A stretch of DNA of 31,567 nucleotides from a virus. Below the pieces are notes generated by a model that was not told the origin of the DNA, did not search any database, and was given only the letters and a program-made list of their open reading frames with translations. Position 1 is the stretch's first letter, and every line of letters begins with the position of its first letter. The translations under genes were made by a program, and so were the position numbers. This document shows positions 5,122 to 31,567 of this stretch, one piece after another. The stretch is from positions 1-31,567 of IMG/VR virus record IMGVR_UViG_3300009103_000108. One strand, 5' to 3'.

Positions 5122-5499
5122 ATGGCATTTCGCAGAAATAGAAATTACAATAGACGACGTACGCACAAACCTCGCCGCCGAGAGCGCGAAGTAGCGCCGG
5201 GACCACGTAGGCAGTCGAATGTCACTGTTGTTGCGCGTAAAGGTGAGCCGGCTGAGAAGATGATCCGCCGGTTTGTGCGCAAATGCAAGAAAGAACGGAT
5301 TATTGAACAAGTTCGCGAGAAAAGATATTATACAAAGCCCTCCGAAGCAAAGCGGCTTAAGCGCGCCGCGTCTATCAGAGAGGCTGAAAGGCTCCGCAAA
5401 AAGGCTGAACGAAAGAAAACAGCCCAGCGCAAGCGACAAGCAAAGCTGCGCCGCATGAGAGCCAAGGGAGGCGGCTCAAATGGCTCCACCACCCGATGA
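5122..5499 (+). CDS. Phage-encoded ribosomal protein bS21-like
   Basis: This 125-residue, extremely basic protein has a bS21 domain at about residues 33-100. It contains VTVVARKGEP, then IRRFVRKCKKERIIEQVREK, RYYTKPSEAKRLKRAASIRE and a Lys/Arg helix. This lines up with E. coli S21 ([40 protein letters not shown]). bS21 sits on the 30S platform near the anti-Shine-Dalgarno end of 16S rRNA and takes part in mRNA binding. The protein is longer than host S21 (about 70 residues): it has an Arg-rich N-terminal extension of about 30 residues and a Gly/Ser-ending tail. Its ribosome site is weak. The last 20 bases overlap the start of the giant fibre gene. Phage bS21 genes are known; it could also be a structural protein built from this fold. 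Confidence 0.75.
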   Translation: MAFRRNRNYNRRRTHKPRRREREVAPGPRRQSNVTVVARKGEPAEKMIRRFVRKCKKERIIEQVREKRYYTKPSEAKRLKRAASIREAERLRKKAERKKTAQRKRQAKLRRMRAKGGGSNGSTTR

Positions 5500-8400
5500 T
5501 TATGGATGGGCGTATATTGACGCCCAACGAGCCACGGCTTCGGCTGACGGTCCATCCGGCTCACTACAGTTTAGATGGGGTAGCGAAGACCTAATCCCCG
5601 GTCAGTTCAGCGGTTCTGCTGATCTGGTCTTTTATCCAAACTCCACAGCGCATAGCGCTGATGGTTCGCCTGACAGCACCACAGGTGACGGCGCTCATAA
5701 CCAGCAGTCACACGATATGTCTGGTTCGTCGCTGTATCTATATGGAAACATGTATATCAGTGGCGCAATCATGGCAGAGAAGTATTCGATCCGCGAGGTA
5801 ACCGCAACAGAGATTGATGTATCTGGTAGTACGATCTTTGGTGACACCAGCGATGACACTCACCGACGCACCGGCTCTCTGGAAGTTAGCGAAAACGTTA
5901 TTGTTACCAAAGACATTCATGTGGGCAACAAGATTAAGCATTTAGGCGACGGAGAAACCGACGACCACTCTGATACCTATCTTGATCTGACGAACGACAA
6001 AGCTGTTTTACGAGTTGGTAGTGCCAACTCAACTACGTGGTATGGTTCTGATGCATCTGGCAGTCAGAACTACGTTATGTTTAATGGCGATGGCGTGGAC
6101 ACCGATTTCTTTATTAGAGGCGCCGGCGGTCCTACCACAACGGTATTTAACTTGGTAGCCAGCGACTCTGACGTAACTGCTGGCGCCCAACTACACATCT
6201 CTGCCGCCCTAGGACCAGTTACAGGTTCTGGCGAGATTCATGCATCTAGATTTGTAAGTAACGATATCTTTACTTCTGGCTCTGTCCACATTGGCGGGAG
6301 CGACCCTCTAGCCCAGCCTGACGAAAAGAACGATCTGGTTATTGGAGATCATACTACACCGGCGGGCAAGACAGGCAACCGTGGAATGACAATTGCTTCC
6401 ACGAACACCGGTGTCGGTACTATTAGATTTGCACCCTTTGCGTCAGCGAACAATGGCGAAGGTTGGATTGATTATTCCGGCAACACCAAAAATATGCGTT
6501 TCGGGACAGACGGGCTCAATACTCGAATGACCATCACCTCGACAGGCAATGTCGGTATCGGCGTAACAGATCCTGATACCCAGCTTGAAGTGTTGGGTAC
6601 AGGCACCCAGCTTAAACTTTCATATGACGCCACCAACTCCACGACACTTGGCATCGACTCCAGCGGGAACTCTACGCTCACCCCCGGCGGCGGAAGACAT
6701 ACCGTCGTTGCCACCAACAACGCCGCCTCTGGACGGGTAAGGCTAGATACTCGCCTTCTCCAGATCGGAGAGAACAATACTTCCGATGTAACCATCGGTC
6801 TTCGCGGCTCAACAAACGACCTCCAAATCGTTTATGACGAGTCAGCCAAGACATTAGCATTTGACACTAGTGATTTGTTTATTGATGCCGCGAACGCAAG
6901 AGTCGGCATTGGAACGGCATCACCCGTTAAAATGCTTCATGTAGCCGGCTCAAGTGTCCACGGCGCGGCTGGTTCAGACCTCCACGCTTTTACTGGTGAT
7001 ATACATCTTACCGGCACCATCGGCGTCAAGAGCGACGTTCTGGTTGGCGGGACTATGTGGGTTGCTAACAAGATAGCCCACAAGCATGACGGAGAAGGCT
7101 CAGGTCATTCAGATACCTATTTTTCGTTTACCGATGACCAAACTGTTCTTCGAGTCGGTAGCGCCAACTCAACTCAATGGTATGGTTCCGATTCATCAGG
7201 TAGCCAGAACTATGTTGTTTTTAACGCTGACGGGGTTGACACCGATTTCTTTATTAGAGGCGCCAGTGGTCCCTCCTCAACAGTATTTAACTTGGTAGCC
7301 AGCGACTCTGACGTAACTGCTGGCGCTCAACTGCACATCTCTGCTGCTCTCGGACCAGTTACAGGTTCAGGCGAGATTCACGCAGCTAGATTTGTAAGTA
7401 ACGATATCTTTACTTCTGGCTCTGTTGGCATCGTGACGCAGGGCTCTGTTGGCATTGGAACGAGCGCCCCTCTCTCTCAGCCGGATGAAAAGAACGATCT
7501 TGTTATTGGAGATAACACAGGCAACCGTGGAATGACAATTGCCACCGCAGGAACTGGTGTTGGCACTATTCGATTTGCTCGATCCGCAAACGCAAATGAT
7601 GGTGAAGGTTGGATTGACTATTCCGGCAACACCAAAAAAATGCGTTTCGGGACAGACGGGCTCAACACTCGAATGACCATTACCAGCACCGGCGATGTTG
7701 GAATCAACACCTCCAGCCCGACCTGTCAGCTTGATGTCGAAGGTGACGCTAGGTTTGGTTCTGTCAACAGCGGAACGGGTTCATCGAATGTCACTACATT
7801 CTACAATACCCTGACCGGAGCAGCTTGCGGCGATGGCGGCGGCGATATTTTTGCCAACCAGCTTTACGTTAATGATATTTATCTTTCTGGTACAGCAACT
7901 GGTATCACTGCCACATACGTCTCTGGCACAAGTGCCGATCCCCGCTCATATTCACATCTTGGCTGGGAGACTTCAGGTTACCTAAAGGCATCCGGCTCGC
8001 TGACGGTGGGCACCAACGCCACTATTGGCGGTTTGCTTACAACACAGTTGCTCAAGATGCCCGACAACACGGCTTTAAAGATTCTTGTCGCAGACGGCAA
8101 CACCTTTCAAGAGGTCGCCGTTGCAGGTGACGCTACTATCTCGGGCGTGAGCGCCGGTACTGCGACAGTTACTATCGCTGCCGACGCAGTTCATTCAACA
8201 ATGCTCAACGACGATTGCATCAGTGGCTTTAGTAATATCGCTGCCATTCCCGCCCAAGCAGACGAATTCTTAATCTCTGACGGCGGTGTGCTTAAAGCCA
8301 TTACATTCTCTCAGCTTGAGGATTCAATCTTTGCCAGTGTTTCAGGTGACGCAACAGTTGCTGCAGGCGGTGCTATCACTATTGCAGCAAATGCGGTCGA

Positions 8401-11400
8401 AGGCTCGATGCTGAATACGGATGTTATTTCTGCTCAGACTGCGATGACTGGTGATGTGGCAGACACAGATGAAGTATTGATTTCAGATGCAGGCACTCTT
8501 AAGAGAGCAGACTTTAGTGTTCTCCGAGATGCAGTGTTTAATGATGTTTCTGGTGATGCCACAGTCGCAGCCGGCGGCGCTCTCACTATTGGATCTGGAA
8601 AAGTTCATGGTGGGATGCTTAATGATGATCTGATCACGGCTGCTGGCAATGCACTCGGAAGTGCAGCCTTGGCGCAAGGCGACAAATTCTTATTTACCGA
8701 TGTGGGCACCGGCAACGATGTTCTCATGAGTGTTACCTTTTCAAATCTTGAAGATTCAATCTTCGGTAATGTTTCGGGTGATGCCACAATCGCTGCAGGC
8801 GGTGCTCTCACTATTGCGGCTGATGCGGTTCATGCGTCAATGCTTAATGATGATTGCATCAGTGGCTTTAGTAACATTGCCGCTATCCCTGCGCAGGCAG
8901 ATGAGTTCCTAATCTCTGACACTGCCAACGGTGCGCTTAAGGCTATCACCTTTGATCAACTTGAAAACTCGGTCTTTGCTCACATCTCAGGTGACGCAAC
9001 TGTTGCAGCCGGCGGTGCTTTAACTATCGCGGCTGGCGCTGTCGAGGGCTCGATGGTTGCTGATGATCTTATCTCTTCTCAGACCAACATTGGTGCTAAC
9101 GCTCTTGCTCAAGCAGATGAATTCTTGGTTTCCGACAACGGCACGCTCAAAGCCATTACATTCTCGAATCTTGAAGACATGATCTTTGGCAATGTGTCCG
9201 GTGATGCAACTGTTGCATCAGGTGGCGCCTTGACTATTGCAGCAAATGCGGTTGAAGGCTCTATGCTCAATTCTAACGTCGCCGGCGTAGGTATTGCATT
9301 AACCAGCAACACTCTTGCTCTCGACTTGAACGAAGTTGCGGAAGTTGCTGTTAATGTAGCCGCAGACAGCATCGCCTTTGTCGATGCGGACGATTCAAAT
9401 GCGACCAAGAAAGACACTATTGCCGATCTCGTAACTGCCATGGCGGGTTCAGGACTTAATTCGCCCAGCGCTGGTGTTATGGGGGTTAACGTAGACGGCA
9501 CTGGCATCGAAATATCCTCTGATGCAATCCGCCTGAAGGATGACGGTGTTACCGCCGCCAAGCTTAATGATAATATCATTTCTGGACAGTCTCAACTTGG
9601 CAGTGCCACCATTGCATCGGCAGACGAATTCTTAATGTCGGACAATGGCACCCTTAAAGCGGTTATTTTCTCAAACCTTGAGGACTCAATCTTCGCTAGC
9701 GTTTCAGGTGATGCGACAATTGCTGCCGGCGGCGCTCTTACTATTGCCGCTGATGCGGTGCATGCAACAATGCTTAATGATGACTGCATTTCTGGTCAGA
9801 CTGAATTGGCTCACGCTGATATCGCTGATGCTGATGAATTGATGATCTCTGATGCTGGTACAATCAAGAGAGTTGGTGTTGACAGTCTTCGTGATCACTT
9901 CTTCGGTGTTGTTAGTGGTGACGCTACAATCGCTGACGGTGGTGCTCTCACTATCGCTGCCGGCGCTGTCGAAAACAGCATGCTTGCCGATGACGCTGTT
10001 GGAGCAGATCAGATTGCCAGCGATGCTGTTACGAACGCGAAGATAGCAGATGGCGCAGTTGACACGGAACACATGGCGAATCTCGCGATCACCAACGCAC
10101 TAATTGATAACGCTACGATTCGCGCAGATAAGCTCGATATCAGTAACAGTACCGATATTGGCGAGGCTCTTGCTGATGACGACGTAATGAATATTGGCAA
10201 CACTAGTGCCAGCGCAAACCGCAAGACCGCAGTAAGCAGATTTAAAACATATACTAAGACAGATATTGGCACTATCGGCACTGCCGAGGCTAGTAAGGCT
10301 GTCATTCTCGACGCATCCAAGAACATTGCAACTCTGGGAACAGTGGGCTGCGGCGCTATCACATCGACAGGCGCATCCACCTTTGGCTCAGTGTCGGGAT
10401 CATCGCTAAGTGCCCTCGGCGCTGCACACATTGGTGGCACACTAACAATGGACGGTGCTGGGATTGTGTTCAATGTCGCAAACTCAGCAGGCACCGTAAA
10501 CTTACAGGTTAATGATGGCGCTGGTGCTGACACCGCGATTACTTTGGGCAAGAACGGAAAGGTTACTAAGATTGGTGACGATACGCCGAGCGATGGGCAG
10601 TATCTCTCTTGGAATGCCACAGCCGGCAAGGTTGCGTGGGCAGATGGTCTAACCGTATGGGGTATGTCAGGTTCTGATGCGCACTATTCTAGCACAGAAC
10701 TTAGAACATCAGGTGATCTCGCTGTTTCGGGCTCGGTCACTCTCGGCGGTATTTCTTCTGGCACGCCGGCTTCCAGTTTGTTCCTAGGTCTAGATAACAA
10801 TAATAACATTGTCAAGGCTGCAGCCGGCGGCTCATGGTATCTCGAAGACTCAGACGGCACAGAGGTTAATATAACCGCAGACAAGGAAGTTAAATTTATT
10901 GGCTCTGGTATTACGACTAACTGGACCGATGCATCTCATGGATCGGATGCCGATCCATATGATCTCACCTTCACAGTTGACGCCGCACAGACTGGCATTA
11001 CGTCTATCCTCGCAACCGATCTCAAGATTGGCGAGGATGATCAAACCAAGATTGACTTTGAAACCAATGACGAGATTCACTTCTACGCTGCCAACGCGCA
11101 TGAGATAACCTTAGCGGCAAACACATTCAAGCCCGCAACGGCAGATGGCATTGCTCTCGGCGCCGCCAACGCCGAATGGTCAGATTTATTCTTAGCTGAT
11201 GGCGGCACAATCCAGCTTGGCGATGATCAGGAGATACAACTGATTCACGAACACGACTCTGGACTTATTATTAAGCGTACGCGCACTAACGATAACAGCC
11301 CGGTGAACCTCACCCTTCAGACCGGCGAGACTTCCATCGAAGGTGGCGATATTCTTGGTAGATTGCAATGGCAAGCGCCCGATGAATCCAATACAGGCGA

Positions 11401-13003
11401 CGGCACAACGATTGCCGCATCGATGCATGTGCAGGCATCGGGTACGTGGAACGCTTCGGTTCAGAAATCTTCCATTGTTTGGAGCACTGCCGATGCTGGC
11501 GAACTTTACCCATGGATGCATCTGCATTATGACGGTCTTCTGAGCGGCAGCAATTGGACTGTTAATGTAGATGGTACGGGCTCATATTCAGAACTTGATG
11601 TGTGGAACCGCATTACATGCGCGCAGCAAGAGAATACTAAGATTGAACTGACGCCCGGTAAGATGACCTTACACGCCAACACAGCTACCCAGCCACAGCT
11701 TACTATTACTAACACCGAAGTTGTAGTTAACGAAGGTAGTTCCGGCGCTCAAGATTTCCGTGTTGAATCGAATGGGCAGACTCATGCTTTCTTTGTCGAT
11801 TCTACCGACAACACAGCGCAAATTAAATTCGGCGGCGGTTACGGAGATACAGGTGTTTCAATCGGCGCAACTGGTTCGATGAATCTTGACGGAGTGCTCC
11901 ATGCCCAATCTGGACTTGAAACAGGGGGCGATTTACAGGTCGGCGGTAACGACATCAAGGACAGTGGTGGTAACGTCGTCCTTTCCTTTGACGGAGACGG
12001 AAACCTCGATAATGATCTTACGATTCAGTCCTCCACCGCCGCCACTAAGCTTGTTAGCACCTCCGGCGAGAGCACTTTATACATGTACGGTCGCGGTGCT
12101 AGCATGTCTTCCGGCGGGAACATCGGCGCCGTCCGGTTCTATGGAACTGAAGACGATGGCACTGGCAACTCTGCTCAAACTAGTTATATATTGGCTGAAA
12201 CTGCAGAATCGGCATGGGCATATGCCTCTTCGTTAGCTACTAGGTTGAAGTTTGCTGTTGGTATTAATGGCTCAACCACGCTTGAAGAGGTTTTCTGTCT
12301 TGACGGGTCTAACAGCGACTACGCTAGGGTTGGCATTGGCACCATCGATCCGACTTATCTACTTTCGGTGGAAGTTGATGACGGTGCCGAATATATTGCA
12401 CAGTTTAGACAACACAGTTCGACCGGATATGGTATTCGGATCCGAAATGCTGATGATTCTTCCGGCAGGCATGTAACATTTGCGAACGATGGCGGAACAA
12501 ACGGTGGTCACATCACGATGAATGGCACCACCGTTGCTTATGGTACGTTTACTGGGTACCACCCAGCTTCGCTTCCGGCTAGCGATCATGATACTGGTTA
12601 TGAATACGGAACTATTGTTAAGATTGCGTCCGTTGATTCGACAACTTATGAAAAGTCAGTAGATTATGATGTTGCAAAAACTACCACCGCACAGGACAAA
12701 GCTGTTCTTGGCGTGTGGGCGGGCAAGATGGGCGAATGTTTTAATGATGATGGCACTCCTGATCGCGAAAGCGGGAAGCATCAAATTTTTGCACTTGGCG
12801 ATGGTCACGTCCTTGTTTGCTCCGAGGGCGGCAATATTGAGACAGGCGATTTTATCTGTTCTTCTAACATGGACGGATACGGAATGTTACAACCAGATGA
12901 CCTTTTGCACAACTACACGGTTGCCCGAGCATCCGAGCCTGTGGACTGGTCAACAGAACAATCCAACACTAAGCTTATTGCGTGTACATATCACGCGGGA
13001 TAG
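5480..13003 (+). CDS. Giant repetitive fibre-like structural protein
   Basis: This 2507-residue protein starts at an ATG behind AAGGGAGG inside the bS21-like gene. It is rich in Gly, Ser, Thr, Asp and Ala, with no membrane segments. Visible modules are: an N-terminal unique part (1-150); two near-identical blocks at about 149-361 and 529-741; eight copies of a roughly 70-residue unit starting SGDATVAAGGALTIAA at about 883-1508; a block with LKIGEDDQTKIDFETNDEIHF near 1840; and a C-terminal domain from about 2340. The end (GDFICSSNMDGYGMLQPDD, then YTVARASEP) resembles C-terminal domains of the peptidase G2 type that can self-cleave during fibre maturation; I see no SDxRLK motif of the S74 type. 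A receptor-binding or head/tail fibre is likely. Its site between protease and scaffold genes is unusual. Confidence 0.75.
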   Translation: MAPPPDDYGWAYIDAQRATASADGPSGSLQFRWGSEDLIPGQFSGSADLVFYPNSTAHSADGSPDSTTGDGAHNQQSHDMSGSSLYLYGNMYISGAIMAEKYSIREVTATEIDVSGSTIFGDTSDDTHRRTGSLEVSENVIVTKDIHVGNKIKHLGDGETDDHSDTYLDLTNDKAVLRVGSANSTTWYGSDASGSQNYVMFNGDGVDTDFFIRGAGGPTTTVFNLVASDSDVTAGAQLHISAALGPVTGSGEIHASRFVSNDIFTSGSVHIGGSDPLAQPDEKNDLVIGDHTTPAGKTGNRGMTIASTNTGVGTIRFAPFASANNGEGWIDYSGNTKNMRFGTDGLNTRMTITSTGNVGIGVTDPDTQLEVLGTGTQLKLSYDATNSTTLGIDSSGNSTLTPGGGRHTVVATNNAASGRVRLDTRLLQIGENNTSDVTIGLRGSTNDLQIVYDESAKTLAFDTSDLFIDAANARVGIGTASPVKMLHVAGSSVHGAAGSDLHAFTGDIHLTGTIGVKSDVLVGGTMWVANKIAHKHDGEGSGHSDTYFSFTDDQTVLRVGSANSTQWYGSDSSGSQNYVVFNADGVDTDFFIRGASGPSSTVFNLVASDSDVTAGAQLHISAALGPVTGSGEIHAARFVSNDIFTSGSVGIVTQGSVGIGTSAPLSQPDEKNDLVIGDNTGNRGMTIATAGTGVGTIRFARSANANDGEGWIDYSGNTKKMRFGTDGLNTRMTITSTGDVGINTSSPTCQLDVEGDARFGSVNSGTGSSNVTTFYNTLTGAACGDGGGDIFANQLYVNDIYLSGTATGITATYVSGTSADPRSYSHLGWETSGYLKASGSLTVGTNATIGGLLTTQLLKMPDNTALKILVADGNTFQEVAVAGDATISGVSAGTATVTIAADAVHSTMLNDDCISGFSNIAAIPAQADEFLISDGGVLKAITFSQLEDSIFASVSGDATVAAGGAITIAANAVEGSMLNTDVISAQTAMTGDVADTDEVLISDAGTLKRADFSVLRDAVFNDVSGDATVAAGGALTIGSGKVHGGMLNDDLITAAGNALGSAALAQGDKFLFTDVGTGNDVLMSVTFSNLEDSIFGNVSGDATIAAGGALTIAADAVHASMLNDDCISGFSNIAAIPAQADEFLISDTANGALKAITFDQLENSVFAHISGDATVAAGGALTIAAGAVEGSMVADDLISSQTNIGANALAQADEFLVSDNGTLKAITFSNLEDMIFGNVSGDATVASGGALTIAANAVEGSMLNSNVAGVGIALTSNTLALDLNEVAEVAVNVAADSIAFVDADDSNATKKDTIADLVTAMAGSGLNSPSAGVMGVNVDGTGIEISSDAIRLKDDGVTAAKLNDNIISGQSQLGSATIASADEFLMSDNGTLKAVIFSNLEDSIFASVSGDATIAAGGALTIAADAVHATMLNDDCISGQTELAHADIADADELMISDAGTIKRVGVDSLRDHFFGVVSGDATIADGGALTIAAGAVENSMLADDAVGADQIASDAVTNAKIADGAVDTEHMANLAITNALIDNATIRADKLDISNSTDIGEALADDDVMNIGNTSASANRKTAVSRFKTYTKTDIGTIGTAEASKAVILDASKNIATLGTVGCGAITSTGASTFGSVSGSSLSALGAAHIGGTLTMDGAGIVFNVANSAGTVNLQVNDGAGADTAITLGKNGKVTKIGDDTPSDGQYLSWNATAGKVAWADGLTVWGMSGSDAHYSSTELRTSGDLAVSGSVTLGGISSGTPASSLFLGLDNNNNIVKAAAGGSWYLEDSDGTEVNITADKEVKFIGSGITTNWTDASHGSDADPYDLTFTVDAAQTGITSILATDLKIGEDDQTKIDFETNDEIHFYAANAHEITLAANTFKPATADGIALGAANAEWSDLFLADGGTIQLGDDQEIQLIHEHDSGLIIKRTRTNDNSPVNLTLQTGETSIEGGDILGRLQWQAPDESNTGDGTTIAASMHVQASGTWNASVQKSSIVWSTADAGELYPWMHLHYDGLLSGSNWTVNVDGTGSYSELDVWNRITCAQQENTKIELTPGKMTLHANTATQPQLTITNTEVVVNEGSSGAQDFRVESNGQTHAFFVDSTDNTAQIKFGGGYGDTGVSIGATGSMNLDGVLHAQSGLETGGDLQVGGNDIKDSGGNVVLSFDGDGNLDNDLTIQSSTAATKLVSTSGESTLYMYGRGASMSSGGNIGAVRFYGTEDDGTGNSAQTSYILAETAESAWAYASSLATRLKFAVGINGSTTLEEVFCLDGSNSDYARVGIGTIDPTYLLSVEVDDGAEYIAQFRQHSSTGYGIRIRNADDSSGRHVTFANDGGTNGGHITMNGTTVAYGTFTGYHPASLPASDHDTGYEYGTIVKIASVDSTTYEKSVDYDVAKTTTAQDKAVLGVWAGKMGECFNDDGTPDRESGKHQIFALGDGHVLVCSEGGNIETGDFICSSNMDGYGMLQPDDLLHNYTVARASEPVDWSTEQSNTKLIACTYHAG
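5926..6562 (+). repeat. Duplicated block in giant fibre gene, copy A
   Basis: This in-frame block matches 7066-7703 at a 1140-base (380-codon) offset. Long stretches are identical at DNA level, for example around GTATTTAACTTGGTAGCCAG and GACACCGATTTCTTTATTAG. It encodes LRVGSANSTTWYGSDASGSQ through MRFGTDGLNTRMTITSTG. Confidence 0.9.
7066..7703 (+). repeat. Duplicated block in giant fibre gene, copy B
   Basis: This is the second copy of the block at 5926-6562. It differs by scattered, often silent substitutions and by small length changes that cancel, near the GDHTTPAGKTGNRG / GDNTGNRG and GSVGIVTQGSVGIG segments. Confidence 0.9.
8126..10005 (+). repeat. Eight-copy ~70-residue repeat array in giant fibre gene
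   Basis: Each unit begins with (S/A)GDAT(V/I)AAGGALTIAA, continues with AV.xSMLNDD.IS and ADEFLISDNGTLKAITFSNL, and ends with ED.IFxxV. Eight units are readable. The sixth is expanded by an insert (LALDLNEVAEVAVNVAAD to AAKLNDN), and the eighth departs from the pattern after MLADDAVGADQ. A related unit occurs in the second fibre-like gene near 22558. Confidence 0.85.
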
Positions 13004-20270: not shown

Positions 20271-23200
20271 ATGGCACGAACATTAGTAAACTCTCACCAG
20301 TTAGCACCCTTTTCAGGTTCAACTTCAAACCAGATCCAAGTTGACTCGCTTATTTTCAGCGGTCCCGGTGGCGGCGCTGCAGCAAAAGATGCAGCATTGA
20401 ACATGACTTCGGGTTCTATCGACAAGGTGGGTACAATTTATTTCTCTGATGGAACAACCGGCACTGCTGGTTCCATCGCAGGAGCGAGTTCCGGGATCCA
20501 ACTCTACGGAAACACAGACATTGATGGTACTTTAACGGCAAACACCAGCCTTACCCTTGATGCAGTCACGATCACCACTGCGGAGATCACAGTACTGGAC
20601 GGTGTAACTGCAGGTACCGCTGCAGCTTCCAAGGCGCTTGTCTTGGACGGTAGCAAGAATATTGCTACTATCGGTACAGTTGGTTGCGGTGCTATCACTT
20701 CAACTGGCAACTCGGCTATGGCTCAACTCACGACCTCTGGTCGCGTAATCGTTGATGACGCCACCGAAGCAACTTCTACAACCGATGGTTCTTTACAGAC
20801 CGATGGTGGTTTAAGTGTCGTAAAGGATGCAGTTTTCGGCGACGACGTTAAGTTGTTAACTGACTCTGCGGTTCTTTCGTTGGGTGCAGGTAGTGATGCT
20901 ACTTTCACACACGATGGTACAACTGGAGTTGTCATCGCAGCTAGCCCAATCACTTTGGATTCTGGCGACGACATCATCCTTGACGCAGAGGGCGCAGACG
21001 TTATCCTTAAGGATGGTGGAACCGAATTCGGTCGCTTCACAAACTCAAGCACAGATTTCGTTATGCAGTCTGCGGTTTCAGACAAGGATATCCTTTTCAA
21101 AGGTAACGACGGTGGCTCTACAATCACTGCCCTTACTCTTGATATGTCTGCTGCAGGTGCTGCTTCTTTCAATAGCTCTGTAACAGCGGTCGGTTCTTTC
21201 ATTATTGGCTCTGCTGATATGTCAGAGGCTGACTTAGAGCAGCTTGATGGCATCACTAAGGGTACCGCTGCTGCCAATAAAGCAATGGTAACCGATGCTA
21301 GCAACAACATCGCTTCTCTTGGTACTCTTGGTTGCGGTGCTATCACTTCAACCGGTAACTCGGCTATGGCTCAACTCACGACCTCTGGTCGCGTAATCGT
21401 TGATGACGCCACCGAAGCAACTAACACTACTGACGGTTCTTTACAAACTGACGGTGGCTTGAGCGTTGCAAAGGATATTGTTGCTGGAGATGATGTAAAG
21501 CTTCTCTCCGATGGCGCTGTCCTTGCTTTTGGTGCTGGTGGTGATACCACTTTGACTCACGTTGCTGATCAGGCTCTCTTGCTCAACAGCACTAGAGCAA
21601 TGTCTTTCGGCGACTCAGGCACTTACATTCATCAGGCATCTGATGGTGTCCTGAAGCTTGCTGCAGATGGCACGCTTCTCTTGTCCACCCCTGTTATATC
21701 GGCTGAGTCTGCTGATGCCAATGAGCCGGTTTTTCAATTGAAGAACACAAATGCAGATGCTAATGGCTCCATTCTTCGCTTCACCAAAGATGGTGCTAGC
21801 GTGGCAGATAACGATGTTATCGGAGTAATGGAGTTCGTCAGCGAAGATGACGCTAGCAATAGCCACGTCTTTGCACAGATGGTTGCAACTATCGCAGACG
21901 CCTCTGCAGGAGCAGAAGGTGGTAGACTTGAATTCAAAGTTGCGGAGCACGATGGAACTGTTACTACAGGTCTGAAGCTTCAAGACGGCGATGCCGATGG
22001 CGAAATCGATGTAACTCTCGGTGCTGGTGCCAACTCTGTTGTCACTATCCCCGGTAACCTCTCGGTCGCTGGTACCACGACCACAGTTAACACTGTGACC
22101 ATGGAAGCCGCAAACGCTATTGTGTTTGAAGGCGCTACCGCTGATGCCCACGAGACTACTCTTAGCATTGTAGACCCAACAGCAGATCACATTTTCTATC
22201 TGCCAGATTTGGGAGGCAGTGCCACTTCTGCTTATGTCGCTGCATTTGCAGCCAGCCCCGGTACTACGTTGGTCACTTCAACACCTGCTGAGCTTAACTT
22301 GCTCGACGGCGGTACCTCAGTTGGCAGCAGTGTCACTGTTGCTGATAGCGACGGTATGATTCTTAACGATGCGGGTACAATGAAGACCATCCCAATGTCT
22401 GATATTAAAACTTATGTTGCCGCATCTCTGGATATCGATGGCTATTCTGCTCTCGGTGGAACTGGTGTCGCCCAAGGCGATCACTTCGTATTCTCCGATG
22501 GTGGAACCGAAAAGAAGATCACATTTTCCAACATGGAAGATGCAATCTTCGGCAACGTCTCTGGCGATGCCACTATCGCTGCTGGCGGTGCTTTGACAAT
22601 CGCTGCAGGCGCTGTTGAAAACAGCATGCTTGCTGATGACGCTGTTGGTGCTGATGAGTTGGCTGCAAACGCAGTTGTTGAGGCTAGCATTGTTGATAAC
22701 GCTGTTACTCTTGCTAAGATGGCTGGACTTGCTCGTGGTAAGTTCATCTATGGTGATTCTAGTGGTGACCCGGCGGCTCTTGCTGTCGGTAGCGCACACC
22801 AATTTTTGCAGGCTGATGGTACAGACCTCGCATGGGTTTCCATGTCGGGTGATGTTACTTTGGCTGCTGGTGTAGCTACCATCCAAGCGGCTTCTGTTGA
22901 AGGTTCTATGCTTAACAATAACATTGTTTCTGGCTTGACCGACATCGGCGGAGCTATCGCTGCGGCTGACGAGATGATCGTCAGTGATAATGGTGTGATT
23001 AAGAGAACTGATGTGTCTCGACTCGGCGACTTCCTTGCTGCTGGTTCTTCCGGTATCGGCGTTGCCAGTGGTCAGCTTACTGTTGACTTCGAGATCGATA
23101 CTGTTATCGGCTCTTCTGGTCACAACTACGCTTCTGCTACTGGTGTTTACACCTTGGGCGAGATCCCTGTTAGCGGATCTGAAATGGTCTTCCTTAATGG

Positions 23201-23339
23201 TCAGATGCTTATGCGCGGTGCAGACTTGGCTGCTGGTGATTATACCTGCAGCTACTCTAGTTCTGGCTCTGTAGAGCTTCACCCCGATCTGAAGCTTGAC
23301 GGCGATGACGTTCTTAGTGTTTATTATCTTGGTACCTAA
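20271..23339 (+). CDS. Second repetitive fibre-like structural protein
   Basis: This 1022-residue protein lies alone between two terminators, behind GGAGG and an ATGAATGG doublet (20267/20271). It is Gly/Ser/Thr/Asp/Ala-rich and shares modules with the giant fibre protein: GTVGCGAITSTG, the SGDATIAAGGALTIAA unit (about residue 763) and ENSMLADDAVGAD. A duplicated internal segment starts near residues 138 and 354. The last 50 residues (GSEMVFLNGQMLMRGADL, then DYTCSYSSSGSVELHPDLKL and DDVLSVYYLG) form a compact beta module like the one at the end of the gp15-like protein. No enzymatic domain is seen. It is likely a fibre, whisker or head/neck appendage; the single-gene unit next to neck and sheath genes suggests independent dosage. 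Confidence 0.75.
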   Translation: MARTLVNSHQLAPFSGSTSNQIQVDSLIFSGPGGGAAAKDAALNMTSGSIDKVGTIYFSDGTTGTAGSIAGASSGIQLYGNTDIDGTLTANTSLTLDAVTITTAEITVLDGVTAGTAAASKALVLDGSKNIATIGTVGCGAITSTGNSAMAQLTTSGRVIVDDATEATSTTDGSLQTDGGLSVVKDAVFGDDVKLLTDSAVLSLGAGSDATFTHDGTTGVVIAASPITLDSGDDIILDAEGADVILKDGGTEFGRFTNSSTDFVMQSAVSDKDILFKGNDGGSTITALTLDMSAAGAASFNSSVTAVGSFIIGSADMSEADLEQLDGITKGTAAANKAMVTDASNNIASLGTLGCGAITSTGNSAMAQLTTSGRVIVDDATEATNTTDGSLQTDGGLSVAKDIVAGDDVKLLSDGAVLAFGAGGDTTLTHVADQALLLNSTRAMSFGDSGTYIHQASDGVLKLAADGTLLLSTPVISAESADANEPVFQLKNTNADANGSILRFTKDGASVADNDVIGVMEFVSEDDASNSHVFAQMVATIADASAGAEGGRLEFKVAEHDGTVTTGLKLQDGDADGEIDVTLGAGANSVVTIPGNLSVAGTTTTVNTVTMEAANAIVFEGATADAHETTLSIVDPTADHIFYLPDLGGSATSAYVAAFAASPGTTLVTSTPAELNLLDGGTSVGSSVTVADSDGMILNDAGTMKTIPMSDIKTYVAASLDIDGYSALGGTGVAQGDHFVFSDGGTEKKITFSNMEDAIFGNVSGDATIAAGGALTIAAGAVENSMLADDAVGADELAANAVVEASIVDNAVTLAKMAGLARGKFIYGDSSGDPAALAVGSAHQFLQADGTDLAWVSMSGDVTLAAGVATIQAASVEGSMLNNNIVSGLTDIGGAIAAADEMIVSDNGVIKRTDVSRLGDFLAAGSSGIGVASGQLTVDFEIDTVIGSSGHNYASATGVYTLGEIPVSGSEMVFLNGQMLMRGADLAAGDYTCSYSSSGSVELHPDLKLDGDDVLSVYYLGT
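20682..20774 (+). repeat. 93-base duplicated segment, copy 1
   Basis: This segment matches 21330-21422 with two differences in 93 bases by my reading. It encodes GCGAITSTGNSAMAQLTTSG and continues to DDATEAT. Confidence 0.9.
21330..21422 (+). repeat. 93-base duplicated segment, copy 2
   Basis: This is the second copy of 20682-20774, 648 bases (216 codons) downstream. The flanks are more diverged but still related (DGSLQTDGGLSV and DDVKLL in both). Confidence 0.9.
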
Positions 23340-26660: not shown

Positions 26661-27179
26661 ATGGCAGGAAGTTTTTGGAACGAACCAGATGTCGAACCAA
26701 AGAGGAAATTTAGATGGATTTTGAGCGTGGGCGACAGCGACATTCCCGCTTGGGTCATTAAGAAGGTTACGAAACCTACTTTTACGTTGAGCGAGGTTAA
26801 GCATAGCTTTATTAATCACTCGTTTTACTATCCCGGTCGCGTAGAATATAATGAAGTTGAGTTTACGCTTGTAGATCCGGTTGATCCTGATATGGCAGCA
26901 AACCTTCTAGACATTATCAAGGGATCAGGCTATGAGTTACCCGAAACGTACGATGTTTCAAAGCAAACGATCACAAAGGGCGAGGCTGTTAGCCGCTTGA
27001 ACCACTGCTACATTCAGCAGATCGATCACGAAGCAAACATTATTGAGCAATGGGATCTCATTAACGCATGGGTTAAGGAAGTTAACTTTGGCGACTTGGA
27101 CTATGAGTCTGACGACATTAACGAGATTACCGTCAAGATGCGCTACGATTTCGCGAAGCTGACCGTGGGCACCCCATAG
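26661..27179 (+). CDS. Tail tube protein, T4 gp19-like
   Basis: This 172-residue protein forms the inner tube of the contractile tail. Length and order directly after the sheath gene match T4 gene 19 (163 residues). The N-terminal RKFRWILSVGDSDIPAWVIK, the segment YYPGRVEYNEVEFTLVDPVD near 53-72 and the C-terminal INAWVKEVNFGDLDYES, then DINEITVKMRYDFAKL, fit the gp19 beta-barrel family. A GGAGG site precedes the ATG. A 71-base AT-rich gap follows, with no T-run terminator. Confidence 0.92.
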   Translation: MAGSFWNEPDVEPKRKFRWILSVGDSDIPAWVIKKVTKPTFTLSEVKHSFINHSFYYPGRVEYNEVEFTLVDPVDPDMAANLLDIIKGSGYELPETYDVSKQTITKGEAVSRLNHCYIQQIDHEANIIEQWDLINAWVKEVNFGDLDYESDDINEITVKMRYDFAKLTVGTP

Positions 27180-27250: not shown

Positions 27251-28156
27251 ATGTCAGGTCGTAACAACGACGAACGGACAGGAGCAAGTCAAGCCAACGA
27301 AGGCGACTCTTCTGCAGCCGTTCAAGCTGCCACGCAGCACCCTAGAGAAACTAACCAGTCGGGACTAAACTTTGTTGTCCCAACAGAATTTGTAGAGTTA
27401 CCATCGGGCGGTAGATACTATGCCGATGGTCACCCATTACAAAAACAGGACACGATTGAGATCAAGTTCATGACAGCCAAGGACGAAGACATTCTTACGT
27501 CTCGTTCGCTGCTGAAGAAGGGCTTGGCTATCAATCGTTTCTTGCAGAACATTATTGTTGACAGGAGTATCAAAGTAGACGATCTTCTTGTCGGAGATAA
27601 GAATGCCATTCTGACGGCAGCGCGTATTTCGGGCTACGGTGCAGAATATATTACTAACACAACTTGTCCAGCGTGCAACTCTACTACTCAGTATGAGTTC
27701 GATTTGAATCAAGGAACCATCACAGGGTTCCATACAGAACATTGCGATCACAGCAAGTTTGAGAACCGTGTCACAGACAACCGCGACGGTACATTTAATA
27801 TTCTTTTGCCAAAGTCAGAAGTAACGGTTACGGTTCGCATGCTCACCGGTCGCGACGAGACACAGCTAGCCGAAGGCATGAAAAAGAAGAACAAGAGTAG
27901 TGTCGTGGGACACGATACTAGCATGACAGACCAAATGAGAACTTATATCTCAGCAGTCAATGGAAGTTCGCAGACGGCACACATCTATGGATTTGTGAAC
28001 GCCATGCCTGCATCAGACTCACGCCTTTTGAGAGCCACCTATCAGGCGTTAATGCCAAATTATGACCTTAGACAGATCTTCGCATGCGAAGAGTGTGGTT
28101 ATGAGCAGGACATGGAGGTGCCGTTTACTGCGGACTTTTTTTGGCCTAAGCAATGA
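27251..28156 (+). CDS. T4 gp26-like baseplate protein with CxxC zinc site
   Basis: This 301-residue protein fits the T4 gp26-type baseplate family. A disordered N-terminus is followed by FVELPSGGRYYADGHPL at about 47-63 and FMTAKDEDILTSRSLLKKGL at 73-92. A long helix with LLVGDKNAILTAARISGYGA comes next. CPAC (Cys139, Cys142) and CEEC (Cys279, Cys282) together could bind one zinc, and another Cys/His cluster lies at 161-167 (HTEHCDH). The gene sits between the tail tube and the tape measure, where most long-tailed phages place their tail assembly chaperones. It ends in TTT TTT TGG, four codons before its stop, and the next gene is in the +1 frame. Confidence 0.8.
   Translation: MSGRNNDERTGASQANEGDSSAAVQAATQHPRETNQSGLNFVVPTEFVELPSGGRYYADGHPLQKQDTIEIKFMTAKDEDILTSRSLLKKGLAINRFLQNIIVDRSIKVDDLLVGDKNAILTAARISGYGAEYITNTTCPACNSTTQYEFDLNQGTITGFHTEHCDHSKFENRVTDNRDGTFNILLPKSEVTVTVRMLTGRDETQLAEGMKKKNKSSVVGHDTSMTDQMRTYISAVNGSSQTAHIYGFVNAMPASDSRLLRATYQALMPNYDLRQIFACEECGYEQDMEVPFTADFFWPKQ
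28136..28142 (+). other. T7 run, candidate +1 frameshift site
   Basis: Seven T residues read GAC TTT TTT TGG in the gp26-like frame, with the stop TGA at 28154. A one-base forward slip of the Phe tRNA on TTT T would continue as GGC CTA AGC into the frame of the next gene, giving a product of about 368 residues. The downstream frame stays open through the whole overlap region from before 28062. Confidence 0.35.
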
Positions 28157-28160
28157 TTAC

Positions 28161-28358
28161 ATGCAAAATGTTTATGAGCAGTTCTTTCTGCTCAAATATC
28201 ATGGTGGATGGAGTTTCATAGAAGCATATAACCTCCCAGTAAAACTACGCACATGGTTCATGAAACGGTTGCAGAAGCAGTTTAAGCAGGAAGCAGCGCA
28301 GATGAAGAAAGCCCAAAAGGGCAGTTCTGGATCCTCCATGCCACGCGGTCCTCGTTAG
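28161..28358 (+). CDS. Small tail-assembly protein next to gp26-like gene
   Basis: This 65-residue protein would start at the ATG at 28161, four bases after the gp26-like stop, with no recognisable ribosome site; coupling or frameshifting would be needed. The sequence LLKYHGGWSFIEAYNLPVKL, then RTWFMKRLQKQFKQEA, is a pattern I associate with small proteins beside gp26-like genes in T4-type phages. In other long-tailed phages the equivalent position holds the C-terminal part of a frameshifted tail chaperone. The tail is basic and Gly/Ser-rich. Function is unproven; helping gp26-like or tape-measure assembly is the best guess. Confidence 0.65.
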   Translation: MQNVYEQFFLLKYHGGWSFIEAYNLPVKLRTWFMKRLQKQFKQEAAQMKKAQKGSSGSSMPRGPR

Positions 28359-28416: not shown

Positions 28417-28426
28417 ACTATTTACA
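28417..28426 (+). promoter_or_regulatory. Recurrent element ACTATTTACA (candidate promoter)
   Basis: A copy of the element in the context ACGAAACTATTTACATGAG, 13 bases after a terminator and 45 bases before the preferred start of the next gene. Confidence 0.4.
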
Positions 28427-28461
28427 TGAGGACAGTAGTATGTTTTACTGGAGGATCGGGA

Positions 28462-28797
28462 ATGAATGAAGATCAGGGCGACTTAGCGCCTATTGTTATA
28501 GACCTTAGTGCCGCATCGAGCGGTGAGTTAAATGAGAGTTGGTTATCCATGTTTGGTGGAGGGATCAAGATGATTCTCCAGCGCATGTTTGGCGGCGACA
28601 AGGTTCCGTTGATTGTTAGAGGTAACAAGAGACAGGTTAAGGATTTTACTCGCACCTTAGCCGGCGAGAAAAGATATTACAAAGACTATGTGAAATATGG
28701 GCTAGATGATCCTCGCACTTATCGCAGCAAATATGCTCTCCGAGGTGCCGTCAAGAAGTTTGAGCGCAGCACGGGTATCGACTGGCCATTCAAATAA
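28462..28797 (+). CDS. Small conserved tail-region protein, unknown function
   Basis: I prefer the ATG at 28462 (111 residues) because GGAGG lies seven bases upstream; the longer start at 28426 has no ribosome site. The first 30 residues are acidic (IVIDLSAASSGELNESWLSM). A hydrophobic helix follows (FGGGIKMILQRMFGG, 31-45), then a basic C-terminal half (VPLIVRGNKRQVKDFTRTLA, EKRYYKDYVKYGLDDPRTYR) ending STGIDWPFK. I have seen similar proteins before tape-measure genes in marine T4-like phages, without a known function. The next gene begins 30 bases later. Confidence 0.7.
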   Translation: MNEDQGDLAPIVIDLSAASSGELNESWLSMFGGGIKMILQRMFGGDKVPLIVRGNKRQVKDFTRTLAGEKRYYKDYVKYGLDDPRTYRSKYALRGAVKKFERSTGIDWPFK

Positions 28798-28827: not shown

Positions 28828-31567
28828 ATGTCAGTTTTTGATTTGACGGACGAACAGGTTGGCGCATTAACGAAAGCACTTGAGGATGCTGGAGTTAGCG
28901 CTACCGATATTGTTACGACGATGGATTCCCTTCCCGGCAAGATCGATAAGGCTGTTCAGCTTACTATAGATCAAAACAAGAACCTGCAAGATCAAGTTAA
29001 TCTTCTAGAAAAATCTGAAGACTCACTTAAGGCACAGGGAGAGTGGGCTGAAGCGATTAACCAGATTAATATCGCCCGCATGCAACAAGAGAAAAACAAT
29101 CTCAAGATGCTGCGCGACCAAGGGTTGATCACACAGGACATATACGAAACAGAACTCCTTATCCTTAAAGCCAAACAAGAGGAAGAGGGGCACGCTCACA
29201 ATGCAGGACAGAATGCGCTTAATATGGCTCAGACGCTTACTGGCGTTAGCGGTGCATGGAAAGGCACGCTCATTGGCTCATTCTTTCAGGGCGATTTCAA
29301 CAAGAACATAGAACGGGCGGGTGCAGCGCTCAAGGAGAACTTCTCCGCAGCAAATATGTTAGGCTCTGCCTTGATGAAGGTAGCAGAGTCCACAATGATG
29401 ATGGTTGTCTCAGCCGATGCACAGTTTGCCGAGGTTAACAAGCTTACTAATGGCACTGGTGAATACAATGACATGATCATGGACACCATGGCGAACAACC
29501 AGCAGTACAACGTTAGTGTTGAAGATGCTGGTGAGGCTGTGAAGTCCCTGTATACTGAAATGAGCAACTTCAGTAACATGTCGAAAGAGGCTCAAGCGGC
29601 AGCAGTAGAAACCACGGCTCAGTTGAAGGGTCTTGGTATTGATGCACAGACAACTGCAGCAAACTTTGAGATTATGACAGGTGCTCTCGGTATGTCATCG
29701 GCTGCAGCGGGCGAAGCACAGAAAGACTTTGCGGCTATGGCTGCAGACTTGGGCGTGAGCGCAGGAAAGATCGCGAAGGACTTTGAGAGAAACGCTGATG
29801 TATTTGTTGCCTATGGCGACGATGCCACTCAGGTATTCAAAGATGTTGCTGCAGCAGCTAAGGCTACTGGCATCGAGATGGATGCTCTGCTTGGCATTAC
29901 CACACAGTTCGACACCTTTGAGGGTGCTGCGAAGGCTGCAGGACAGTTGAACGCTGTTCTCGGTGGTGGATTATTAAACTCTATGGATCTTTTGAACGCT
30001 TCTGAGGAAGAGAGAGTTCGCATGCTGATCAGTTCAGTTGAGGCGTCTGGCAAGAGTTGGCAATCCATGAGCAAGTTTGAGAAGCAAGCTGTTGCCAACG
30101 CTGCCGGCATTAAAGACATGACTCAAGCCAGCAAGCTATTCGGACAGAGCCTCGCGGAGTACGATGCAGCCCAAGCAAAGGTTGAGGATAACGCAGAGGC
30201 GCAAGCAAAGTTGGAAGAGCGTGCGGCTGCTGCTGCCAACATGCAAGACAAACTCAAGCGCATCATGGAGCAGTTCGCAGTAGCTGTACAGCCGATTATT
30301 AATGCTGTTCACTTTCTCTTAGACGGGCTGTTGAGTCTTAATGACATGACGGGCGGCATGCTGATCCCCACACTTATTGGATTAGCTACGGCGATGATGG
30401 CAATCCATCACTGGTCAAAGTTATCAGCGATGTGGAGCACAATCATGACAGGCAAGGCGGTTGTTCAAGCCACAGCCGAAGGCGGTCTTGCTGGTGCCAA
30501 GGCTGCACTTACTACAGCGACAGCAGCCCAGACTGCTGCCGCACCCGCAGCCGCGACAGGCTCTAAGCTTATGGCAAAGGGCATTCAATCATTGGGCAGG
30601 GCTGCAGCCATGGCTGGTCCGAAACTGATGGCGATCCTTGGTCCTATTGGCGCCATTGCGGTTGCTGTTGCCGCTCCAATTCTGCTGCTAGCTGTTATTA
30701 TCTGGTCAATGAAAGAGTTGGTCTTGGCGTTCATGGCAGCACCAGAGGCGATCATCCCTGCCATGCTGGGACTGATGGCATTTATCGGAGTAGCTGCAGT
30801 CGGACTGCCAATATTGGGTGCTGCCTTTTCAGCCTTCTTTATTGCGCTAGGTAATCCAGCATCAATCGCTGCGATGACTGCGTTGATGCCAGTGCTGCCC
30901 ACTATGGCTGTTAGTTTTGGTCTGCTTTCTGCATCATTGTGGATTCTAGGGAAGGCAATTCAGGAGTTCATTGGTAAAGATATGCCGGGCGCAATGCTGT
31001 TGGCTTTGGCTTCTCTCTGGGCATTTGGTTTGGGGCTTTTACAGCTTGGACCCCTGATGAAAAAGAGTTTCAGGAAGGTCGGTATAAACGTCGGAATCTT
31101 GGCTATCGCTTTGCTGCTTTTAGGCAAAGCTTTGCAAGAGTGGAATAACGTTGGCGTCGGCGAAGCGATGGCGGCATATATTAGCCTGTGGGTTTTCGCT
31201 TTAGCCCTGATACCTCTCGCGGAAGTGTTGGATGAGGGCGCATTCAAGGTGGGCGTTGCCGTGGGCATCCTTGGGCTTGGCTTATTGCTCCTAGGGATGG
31301 GGCTCCAATCATTCAACGATGTTGGAGTCGGAGCAATGATTGCAGCTACCGTTGCTCTAATAATCTTTGGACTAGCCCTGAATTACATTGTTGCTCCAGC
31401 GCTGACCACTGGTGCTCTGATGGTTGGCGGCGCCGCAATCCTTCTAGGCATTGGTCTTATACTATTGGCTAAAGGCATTGGCGCGTTTGAAGAGATCCCG
31501 CCCGGCTTGCTCATAGGTCTGCCTATCGCGCTGGCAATCTTTGGCTGGGGTCTTCTCGCCGCTGGCA
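28828..31567 (+). CDS. Tail tape-measure protein (3' partial)
   Basis: The frame starts at an ATG after AAGGAG and is still open at the window end (913 codons seen). Tape-measure proteins set tail length and are ejected through the tube. The N-terminal part has a charged coiled-coil-like region (about 40-130). Next come Ala-rich helices (about 170-470) including VAYGDDATQVFKDVAAAAKA and QLNAVLGGGLLNSMDLLNAS, which are typical of tape measures. From about 495 it turns strongly hydrophobic, with several potential membrane segments, and from about 708 it shows tandem units of 57-59 residues. T4 gp29 (about 590 residues) is shorter, so the tail may be longer or the protein may carry an extra membrane-acting part. 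Confidence 0.85.
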   Translation, partial: MSVFDLTDEQVGALTKALEDAGVSATDIVTTMDSLPGKIDKAVQLTIDQNKNLQDQVNLLEKSEDSLKAQGEWAEAINQINIARMQQEKNNLKMLRDQGLITQDIYETELLILKAKQEEEGHAHNAGQNALNMAQTLTGVSGAWKGTLIGSFFQGDFNKNIERAGAALKENFSAANMLGSALMKVAESTMMMVVSADAQFAEVNKLTNGTGEYNDMIMDTMANNQQYNVSVEDAGEAVKSLYTEMSNFSNMSKEAQAAAVETTAQLKGLGIDAQTTAANFEIMTGALGMSSAAAGEAQKDFAAMAADLGVSAGKIAKDFERNADVFVAYGDDATQVFKDVAAAAKATGIEMDALLGITTQFDTFEGAAKAAGQLNAVLGGGLLNSMDLLNASEEERVRMLISSVEASGKSWQSMSKFEKQAVANAAGIKDMTQASKLFGQSLAEYDAAQAKVEDNAEAQAKLEERAAAAANMQDKLKRIMEQFAVAVQPIINAVHFLLDGLLSLNDMTGGMLIPTLIGLATAMMAIHHWSKLSAMWSTIMTGKAVVQATAEGGLAGAKAALTTATAAQTAAAPAAATGSKLMAKGIQSLGRAAAMAGPKLMAILGPIGAIAVAVAAPILLLAVIIWSMKELVLAFMAAPEAIIPAMLGLMAFIGVAAVGLPILGAAFSAFFIALGNPASIAAMTALMPVLPTMAVSFGLLSASLWILGKAIQEFIGKDMPGAMLLALASLWAFGLGLLQLGPLMKKSFRKVGINVGILAIALLLLGKALQEWNNVGVGEAMAAYISLWVFALALIPLAEVLDEGAFKVGVAVGILGLGLLLLGMGLQSFNDVGVGAMIAATVALIIFGLALNYIVAPALTTGALMVGGAAILLGIGLILLAKGIGAFEEIPPGLLIGLPIALAIFGWGLLAAG
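30949..31567 (+). repeat. Tandem 57-59-residue hydrophobic repeats in tape measure
   Basis: Units begin GKAIQEF (30949), GKALQEW (31123), GMGLQSF (31294) and AKGIGAF (31471, cut by the edge). Each continues with xxVGVGxAM or a similar turn, then two hydrophobic helices. The repeats are diverged at DNA level. Confidence 0.7.

Follow-up and report, generated by a model that had tools for sequence, protein, structure and literature searches.

The gp26-like gene of this viral DNA is followed, in an overlapping and shifted reading frame, by a small open reading frame (ORF), and the question that the locus raises is whether the two encode separate proteins or form one gene from which a short and a long tail assembly chaperone (TAC-N and TAC-NC) are made. 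Judged from sequence, the latter is very probable, the long form being produced through a programmed +1 ribosomal frameshift. The features concerned lie in the window, that is, the whole stretch of 31,567 bases that was analysed, and are as follows.

26661..27179, + strand: tail tube protein gene, upstream context (phrog_4542, tail tube, E 5.3e-22)
27251..28156, + strand: gp26-like gene, read as the short tail assembly chaperone TAC-N, 301 aa (PF12322, phrog_150), with stop TGA at 28154-28156
28136..28144, + strand: putative shift site TTT TTT TGG, with presumed P-site TTT at 28139-28141 and A-site TGG at 28142-28144
28143..28358, + strand: +1-frame C-terminal domain (GLSNDYMQNVYEQFFLLKYHGGWSFIEAYNLP...), 71 codons, stop at 28356-28358, which would give the long form TAC-NC of 368 residues
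28154..28156, + strand: zero-frame stop TGA; in the +1-group relatives a TGA, TAA or TAG lies 2-6 codons after the shift site
28161..28163, + strand: ATG, a possible but unlikely separate start of a 65-residue ORF, without SD-like motif, the codon not being conserved
28426-28797: ORF of 123 residues that separates the chaperone pair from the long ORF, with no usable family match
28828..31567, + strand: long ORF running off the window, probable tape measure gene by position, context

The gp26-like gene and its surroundings

The 301-residue protein matches PF12322 (T4_baseplate) above the curated cut-off (E 2.2e-11, 44.3 bits vs a cut-off of 24.5), its residues 48-298 aligning to profile positions 7-219, and it also matches phrog_150 (E 2.3e-15); it is the one PF12322 copy within the 31,567-base record, which is a fragment. 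The small protein on its own gave only weak Pfam matches (PF06440, E 0.031; DUF6760, E 0.047), of which no use was made. The gene pair sits between the tail tube gene, assigned by PHROG, and the tape-measure position, as is the case for TAC-N/TAC-NC. Neither Pfam nor PHROG gave a match worth using for the long ORF at 28828..31567, which is taken as the probable tape measure gene from its position and from Flavobacterium phage immuto, where the gene after the chaperone pair is annotated as tail tape measure protein. An ORF similar in size to that at 28426-28797 occupies the same place in HTVC008M and Melnitz. Elsewhere in the window, positions 5480-13003 and 20271-23339 encode very long proteins (2507 and 1022 aa) that share repeated SGDATVAAGGALTIAANAVEGSMLN-type segments.

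The initial annotation placed GAC TTT TTT TGG at 28133-28144, four sense codons from the stop of the gp26-like ORF, and a re-reading of the codons agrees: the ORF ends with GAC (28133-28135), TTT (28136-28138), TTT (28139-28141), TGG (28142-28144), CCT, AAG, CAA and TGA (28154-28156), such that the T run occupies 28136-28142 and TGG is the first of the last four sense codons. The +1 frame, as had also been described, is open from upstream of the T run, through the overlap and into the 65-residue protein, to the stop at 28358 (ORF 28062-28358). Read from the shift, its translation begins GLSNDYMQNVYEQFFLLKYHGGWSFIEAYNLPVKLRTWFMKRL..., and when TTTT is read as one Phe, with one base skipped, the fusion comes to 368 residues, as against the figure of about 368 that had been proposed for a +1 slip on the T7 run. 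That ATG 28161 has no ribosome site likewise holds, no Shine-Dalgarno (SD)-like motif having been found before it in the window. The canonical -1 pattern X XXY YYZ is absent here, GAC preceding the run and the domain lying in the +1 frame; so too is the prfB-type +1 signal, the A site being UGG and SD-like motifs lying mostly at -24/-25. Since the window has an in-frame ATG, it is, taken alone, compatible with a separate small protein.

Frame, site and codon choice among relatives

Three groups of relatives were assembled. Searching IMG/VR with the 301-residue protein yielded 80 loci, and group A is made up of the window and 78 close relatives (79 readable junctions), L001 having a protein identical to that of the window and L020 (gene cut) and L048 (no stop) being left out. 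Group B consists of 78 relatives of Microcystis phage Mel-JY01, without L234 and L263 (no stop), and group C of 90 relatives of P-SSM4 and HTVC008M, without L197 (partial) and L159 (C domain not called); L294 (cut) was left out of the genome-bin loci. Dereplication at 90%, applied to 244 loci and limited to full-length genes with no unknown letters, gave 48 loci in A, 55 in B and 61 in C. The frame of the C-terminal domain was called with an HMM that took the window as its seed and was iterated on translations of the two shifted frames and of the zero frame beyond the stop.

This HMM places the domain in +1 in 79/79 loci of group A and 78/78 of group B, and in no locus was it found in two frames. 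Three group B loci (L238, L267 and L275) had been assigned to -1 by a longest-open-frame rule, which was overruled as the HMM puts all of group B in +1. Six out of six further loci on genome-bin contigs, four of them titled Bacteroidota, are +1 as well. Group C carries the domain in -1, according to this model in 87/90 loci and according to a model seeded within the group in 89/90. Persistence of the T run, the +1 relation and the open overlap among relatives had been named beforehand as a test of the frameshift: the relation and the overlap are kept in 157/157 loci of groups A and B, and the unbroken T7 run in 149/157. None of the 157 combines a separate ribosome site with stop codons in the overlap, the case named as telling against a shift, and the two members with a start of their own at the stop, L085 and Cygsa01, are distant ones.

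The sites in these 157 loci are TTT TTT TGG in 149 (76 in A, 73 in B), CTT TTT TGG in 3 (all B), TTC TTT TGG in 2 (both A), TTT TTT TAC in 2 (both B) and TTT CTT TGG in 1 (A). In group C they are NNT TTT TTC (80) or NNT TTT TTT (9), the base before the run being T in 89/89. Annotated or named phages extend the +1 series, with TTT TTT TGG in Mel-JY01, TTT CTT TGG in immuto, TTT TTT CAC in SP-15, TTT TTT AGT in LIS04, TTC TTT CGT in GXN1 and TTT CTA in an uncultured huge phage. The +1 relation is kept without a T7 run at TTC TTT TGG (L047, L070), TTT CTT TGG (L059 and immuto, L084), TTC TTT CGT (L086) and TTT CTA (L083). On the other side, a -1 frame is found in KVP40-type V09, Aeromonas 65, Melnitz, OLIVR5, SRB7757 and, weakly, Yut3, and a -1-frame ORF in Stenotrophomonas RAS14 (T TTT TTT, with weak HMM support) and Pseudomonas Paride (T TTT TTC, not among the HMM matches listed). 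Two Ackermannviridae, Matapan and 0507-KN2-1 (L284, L286), have a gp26 that ends ATT TTC ATT TAA and a C domain in the -1 frame, with no start codon, no canonical slippery heptamer and no small ORF annotated; the HMM scores of the Ackermannviridae and of Yut3 are weak (E 1e-4 to 8e-4, group C model).

The choice of codons at the site departs strongly from what the Phe codon use of the same genes would give. In the dereplicated sets TTT-TTT is present in 45/48 loci of group A and 52/55 of group B, for which 21.2 and 29.2 are expected, and in 2/61 of group C against 31.7 expected, where TTT-TTT is rare because the group uses TTT TTC. A final T in the codon just before the run is seen in 2/48 and 0/55 loci of groups A and B (22.4 and 27.1 expected) and in 61/61 of group C (37.5 expected). 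In other words, the -1 heptamer is avoided in the +1 groups, where U UUU UUU occurs in 2/103 dereplicated loci against an expected 49.5, and is required in the -1 group.

Selection is also apparent beyond the run. In 48/48 loci of A and 55/55 of B, T is the last base of the codon that follows UGG (UAC in two of the loci), with 14.4 and 14.1 expected. In the +1 frame this T stands second in a Leu codon, such that Leu is kept there in 103/103 dereplicated loci against 28.5 expected. The residues after the shift are Gly-Leu in 79/79 of group A and 76/78 of group B (TL in the other 2). Tyr is found at +1 position 5, just upstream of ATG 28161, in 75/79 of A and 75/78 of B (150/157), and at +1 position 10 in 78/79 of A; the +1 residues keep a fixed spacing while the zero-frame stop moves. 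Synonymous choices protect the T run, avoid the -1 heptamer and keep the +1-frame leucine.

Mechanism of the probable shift and its rivals

The conserved +1 relation, the conserved site, the selection on codons, the loss of start codons and the homology of the C domain with the C-terminus of T4 gp51 are established. We infer that the event is ribosomal and in the +1 direction, and the same holds for its frequency and for the role of each form. On this reading most ribosomes would end at TGA 28154, giving the short form of 301 aa. In a minority, tRNA-Phe on UUU 28139-28141 in the P site, with UGG in the A site, would slip forward by one base and re-pair with UUU 28140-28142 without loss of pairing; GGC would be read next, and reading on to 28358 would yield the 368-residue long form with its C-terminal helical domain. 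If lambda gpG/gpGT is a guide, the tape measure may be coated by the short form, and tube subunits may be recruited by the extra domain of the long form. Where the P codon is CUU, as in L059 and immuto, the slip would be that of prfB, which occurs on CUU U, with UUU and CCC the next most slippery codons there according to the part of PMC10885494 that was available. A stimulatory SD at the prfB spacing was not seen, SD-like motifs lying at -24/-25 in 28/48 group A loci and at -7 in 4/48; nor is there a stop codon in the A site, UGG being a sense codon. Downstream structure is weakly above that of shuffles, at a mean z of -1.2 in A and -0.8 in B (up to 30 loci per group).

The initial annotation regarded coupled re-initiation as the simpler alternative. 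Here ribosomes that have terminated at TGA 28154 would restart at ATG 28161, 4 bases past the stop, which would make the 65-residue protein a subunit in its own right. An ATG stands at this position in 35/79 group A loci, and a usable overlapping or adjacent start exists in the two distant members already named. As a general explanation, however, re-initiation fails, since the codon at 28161 varies while the Tyr upstream of it is kept: in group A the codon encodes M in 35 loci, I in 35, T in 3, A in 2, V in 2 and other residues in two, and in group B it is R or K in 78/78. Moreover, 113/157 loci have no ATG, GTG or TTG in the first ten shifted codons (39/79 in A, 74/78 in B; also 27/89 in C), although the window, with ATG 28161, is not among them; such a codon is present there in 40/79 of A, the window included, 4/78 of B and 62/89 of C. 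With the search widened to the first 15 codons and to the stretch upstream as far as the in-frame stop, none is found in 7/79, 27/78 and 26/89 loci respectively, and in 13 group B loci CTG, ATT, ATC and ATA are also absent from the first ten codons and upstream. Where the ATG at the 28161 position does exist, an SD-like motif precedes it in only 3/35 loci. Residues of the +1 frame are conserved upstream of the ATG, and T4-type relatives carry the same domain fused in frame, as gp51. Re-initiation is accordingly judged unlikely as the source of the small domain in the window. In Cygsa01 (L280) and the uncultured huge phage L085 an ATG that overlaps or closely follows the gp26 stop (TAATG, TAATGG) begins the small ORF, and lineages like these may make it as a separate protein.

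The same frame would also be reached by a -2 ribosomal frameshift on the U7 run, as occurs in phage Mu (PMC5009743, text available in part), with a product longer by one Phe, and by reading of the sites 154/157 permit the re-pairing. Such a slip is impossible at the TTC TTT TGG and TTT CTT TGG relatives and in L083 and L086, yet the frame is kept in all of them, and for the window we hold a -2 event to be very unlikely. Transcriptional slippage, in which the T7 run would give rise to a mixed pool of mRNAs, draws on the presence of that run in 149/157 sites and is harder still to credit, as runs broken by C (L047, L059, L070, L084) stay +1 and a T before the run, which should help by lengthening it, is avoided. 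Indeed, the sites TTC TTT TGG, TTT CTT TGG, TTC TTT CGT and TTT CTA speak against both -2 shifting and T7 slippage for the members that have them. Finally, an indel of sequencing or assembly, with the true gene being a single in-frame ORF, would be suggested by a homopolymer in metagenome contigs, and its probability is close to nil: the same +1 relation recurs in 157 loci of many assemblies, in six genome-bin contigs and in the annotated Mel-JY01 and immuto, and the zero-frame stop shifts in both position and type (TGA, TAA, TAG). The +1 ribosomal frameshift of the initial annotation is hence the reading which the site, the frame and the codon selection in relatives support.

Kinship with T4 gp26/gp51 and other chaperone systems

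T4 gp26 and gp51 belong to the same family, both matching PF12322 over most of their length. The C-domain HMM matches the C-termini of gp51 from T4 and the other Straboviridae tested, and none of four gp26s; T4 gp51 is found at E 4e-6 with the group C model (the best of 200 shuffles reaching 0.02) and at E 0.002 with the group A model, and RB43 gp51 with the group C model only. With the domain in gp51 and not in gp26, the long form corresponds to gp51 and the short form to gp26. In other words, T4 has the two lengths from two separate genes, whereas in the window they would come from one gene with a +1 shift. This two-gene arrangement of T4 is already published (Vladimirov, Gautam and Davidson 2022, here through papers that cite it): the PRFect paper (PMC10885494, in the text available) cites it for certain T4-like phages in which a short gene and a longer, fused one coexist, and the phage Adele paper (PMC12846349, likewise) for poly-T -1 signals.

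Comparisons of fold hint at a chaperone. AF2 models of the window protein and of gp51 have pLDDT values of 87.5 and 82.9. For the window model the best PDB rows are the HK97 tail assembly chaperone 2ob9 (Z 5.5, rmsd 5.6, 86 residues) and, equally, YqbN 3klu (Z 5.5, rmsd 8.3, 91 residues), which we take to be of the chaperone class; a Z of 5.5 is too low to be relied on alone, and the next row is at 3.0. With VIA-align, gp51 finds the HK97 chaperone at rank 4 (Z 3.7). With Foldseek the best E for gp51 was 1.1, and no hit of the window protein reached E <= 0.001; single-sequence hhalign of T4 gp51 and gp26 against the fusion profile gave too weak a match to be of use.

The cyanophage and pelagiphage relatives (P-SSM4, HTVC008M), the KVP40-type phages, Aeromonas phage 65 and Melnitz resemble the window in having a homologous small domain after gp26, in a shifted frame, at a Phe-Phe site. 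They differ from it in that the frame is -1, on canonical U UUU UUC/U (89/89 of the group C loci with a called frame). This -1 arrangement explains why cyanophage gp51 was described as being without its first ~200 residues in Sullivan 2010 (PMC3037559), the available part of which makes no mention of frameshifting. In HTVC008M (L107), immuto (L084), SP-15 (L088) and RAS14 (L087) the small second ORF is annotated from an internal start, such that the long chaperone is cut in these public records.

In lambda the chaperone genes lie between the tube and tape measure genes. The window is like lambda gpG/gpGT and the chaperones of other long-tailed phages in this location and in having a short form and a predicted long form that depends on a shift shortly before the first ORF ends; lambda-type shifts are mostly -1 and that predicted for the window is +1, and no sequence relation was seen. 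The G-T frameshift was called widely conserved 'except T4' in a 2016 review (PMC5009743), the available text of which also lists +1 shifts in structural or chaperone genes of the haloarchaeal myovirus HSTV-2 and of Listeria PSA, A118 and A500. The window shares its direction with these, although the PSA type has CCC in front of a stop or pseudoknot, unlike the window. As in prfB (CUU UGA), the slip would be a forward one, from a pyrimidine-U-U codon in the P site onto U, and some group members have CUU UGG; prfB has a stop in the A site and an SD at a characteristic distance, and the window has neither.

The system is read as one of a known kind, a programmed frameshift in tail assembly chaperones, and +1 is the rarer direction of the phage chaperone frameshift. 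Its +1 version appears to be new for the T4-type family: no description of a +1 shift in the T4-type gp26 family was found in the literature as available, in which Vladimirov 2022 is represented by the papers that cite it. On balance we favour the view that the frameshift has changed direction within one orthologous chaperone gene: it would be -1 on U UUU UUY in the cyanophage- and KVP40-type phages and +1 on YUU|UGG in the large aquatic groups of the window, and in T4 a gene duplication would have taken its place, selection being evident at the one base that precedes the run. The +1 signal would then belong to a sense-codon type not described before, in which UGG follows UUU or CUU and there is neither a stop nor an SD at the prfB spacing.

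T4-type phages have been listed as an exception to the chaperone frameshift and, later, as users of another mechanism. The present results suggest that much of the T4-type family does shift, in either direction, at the same Phe-Phe site, and how a frameshift changes sign or yields to gene duplication while both protein lengths are kept becomes testable here. Public records miss or truncate the long form, which a search for YUU UGG at the ends of PF12322 genes would help to fix.
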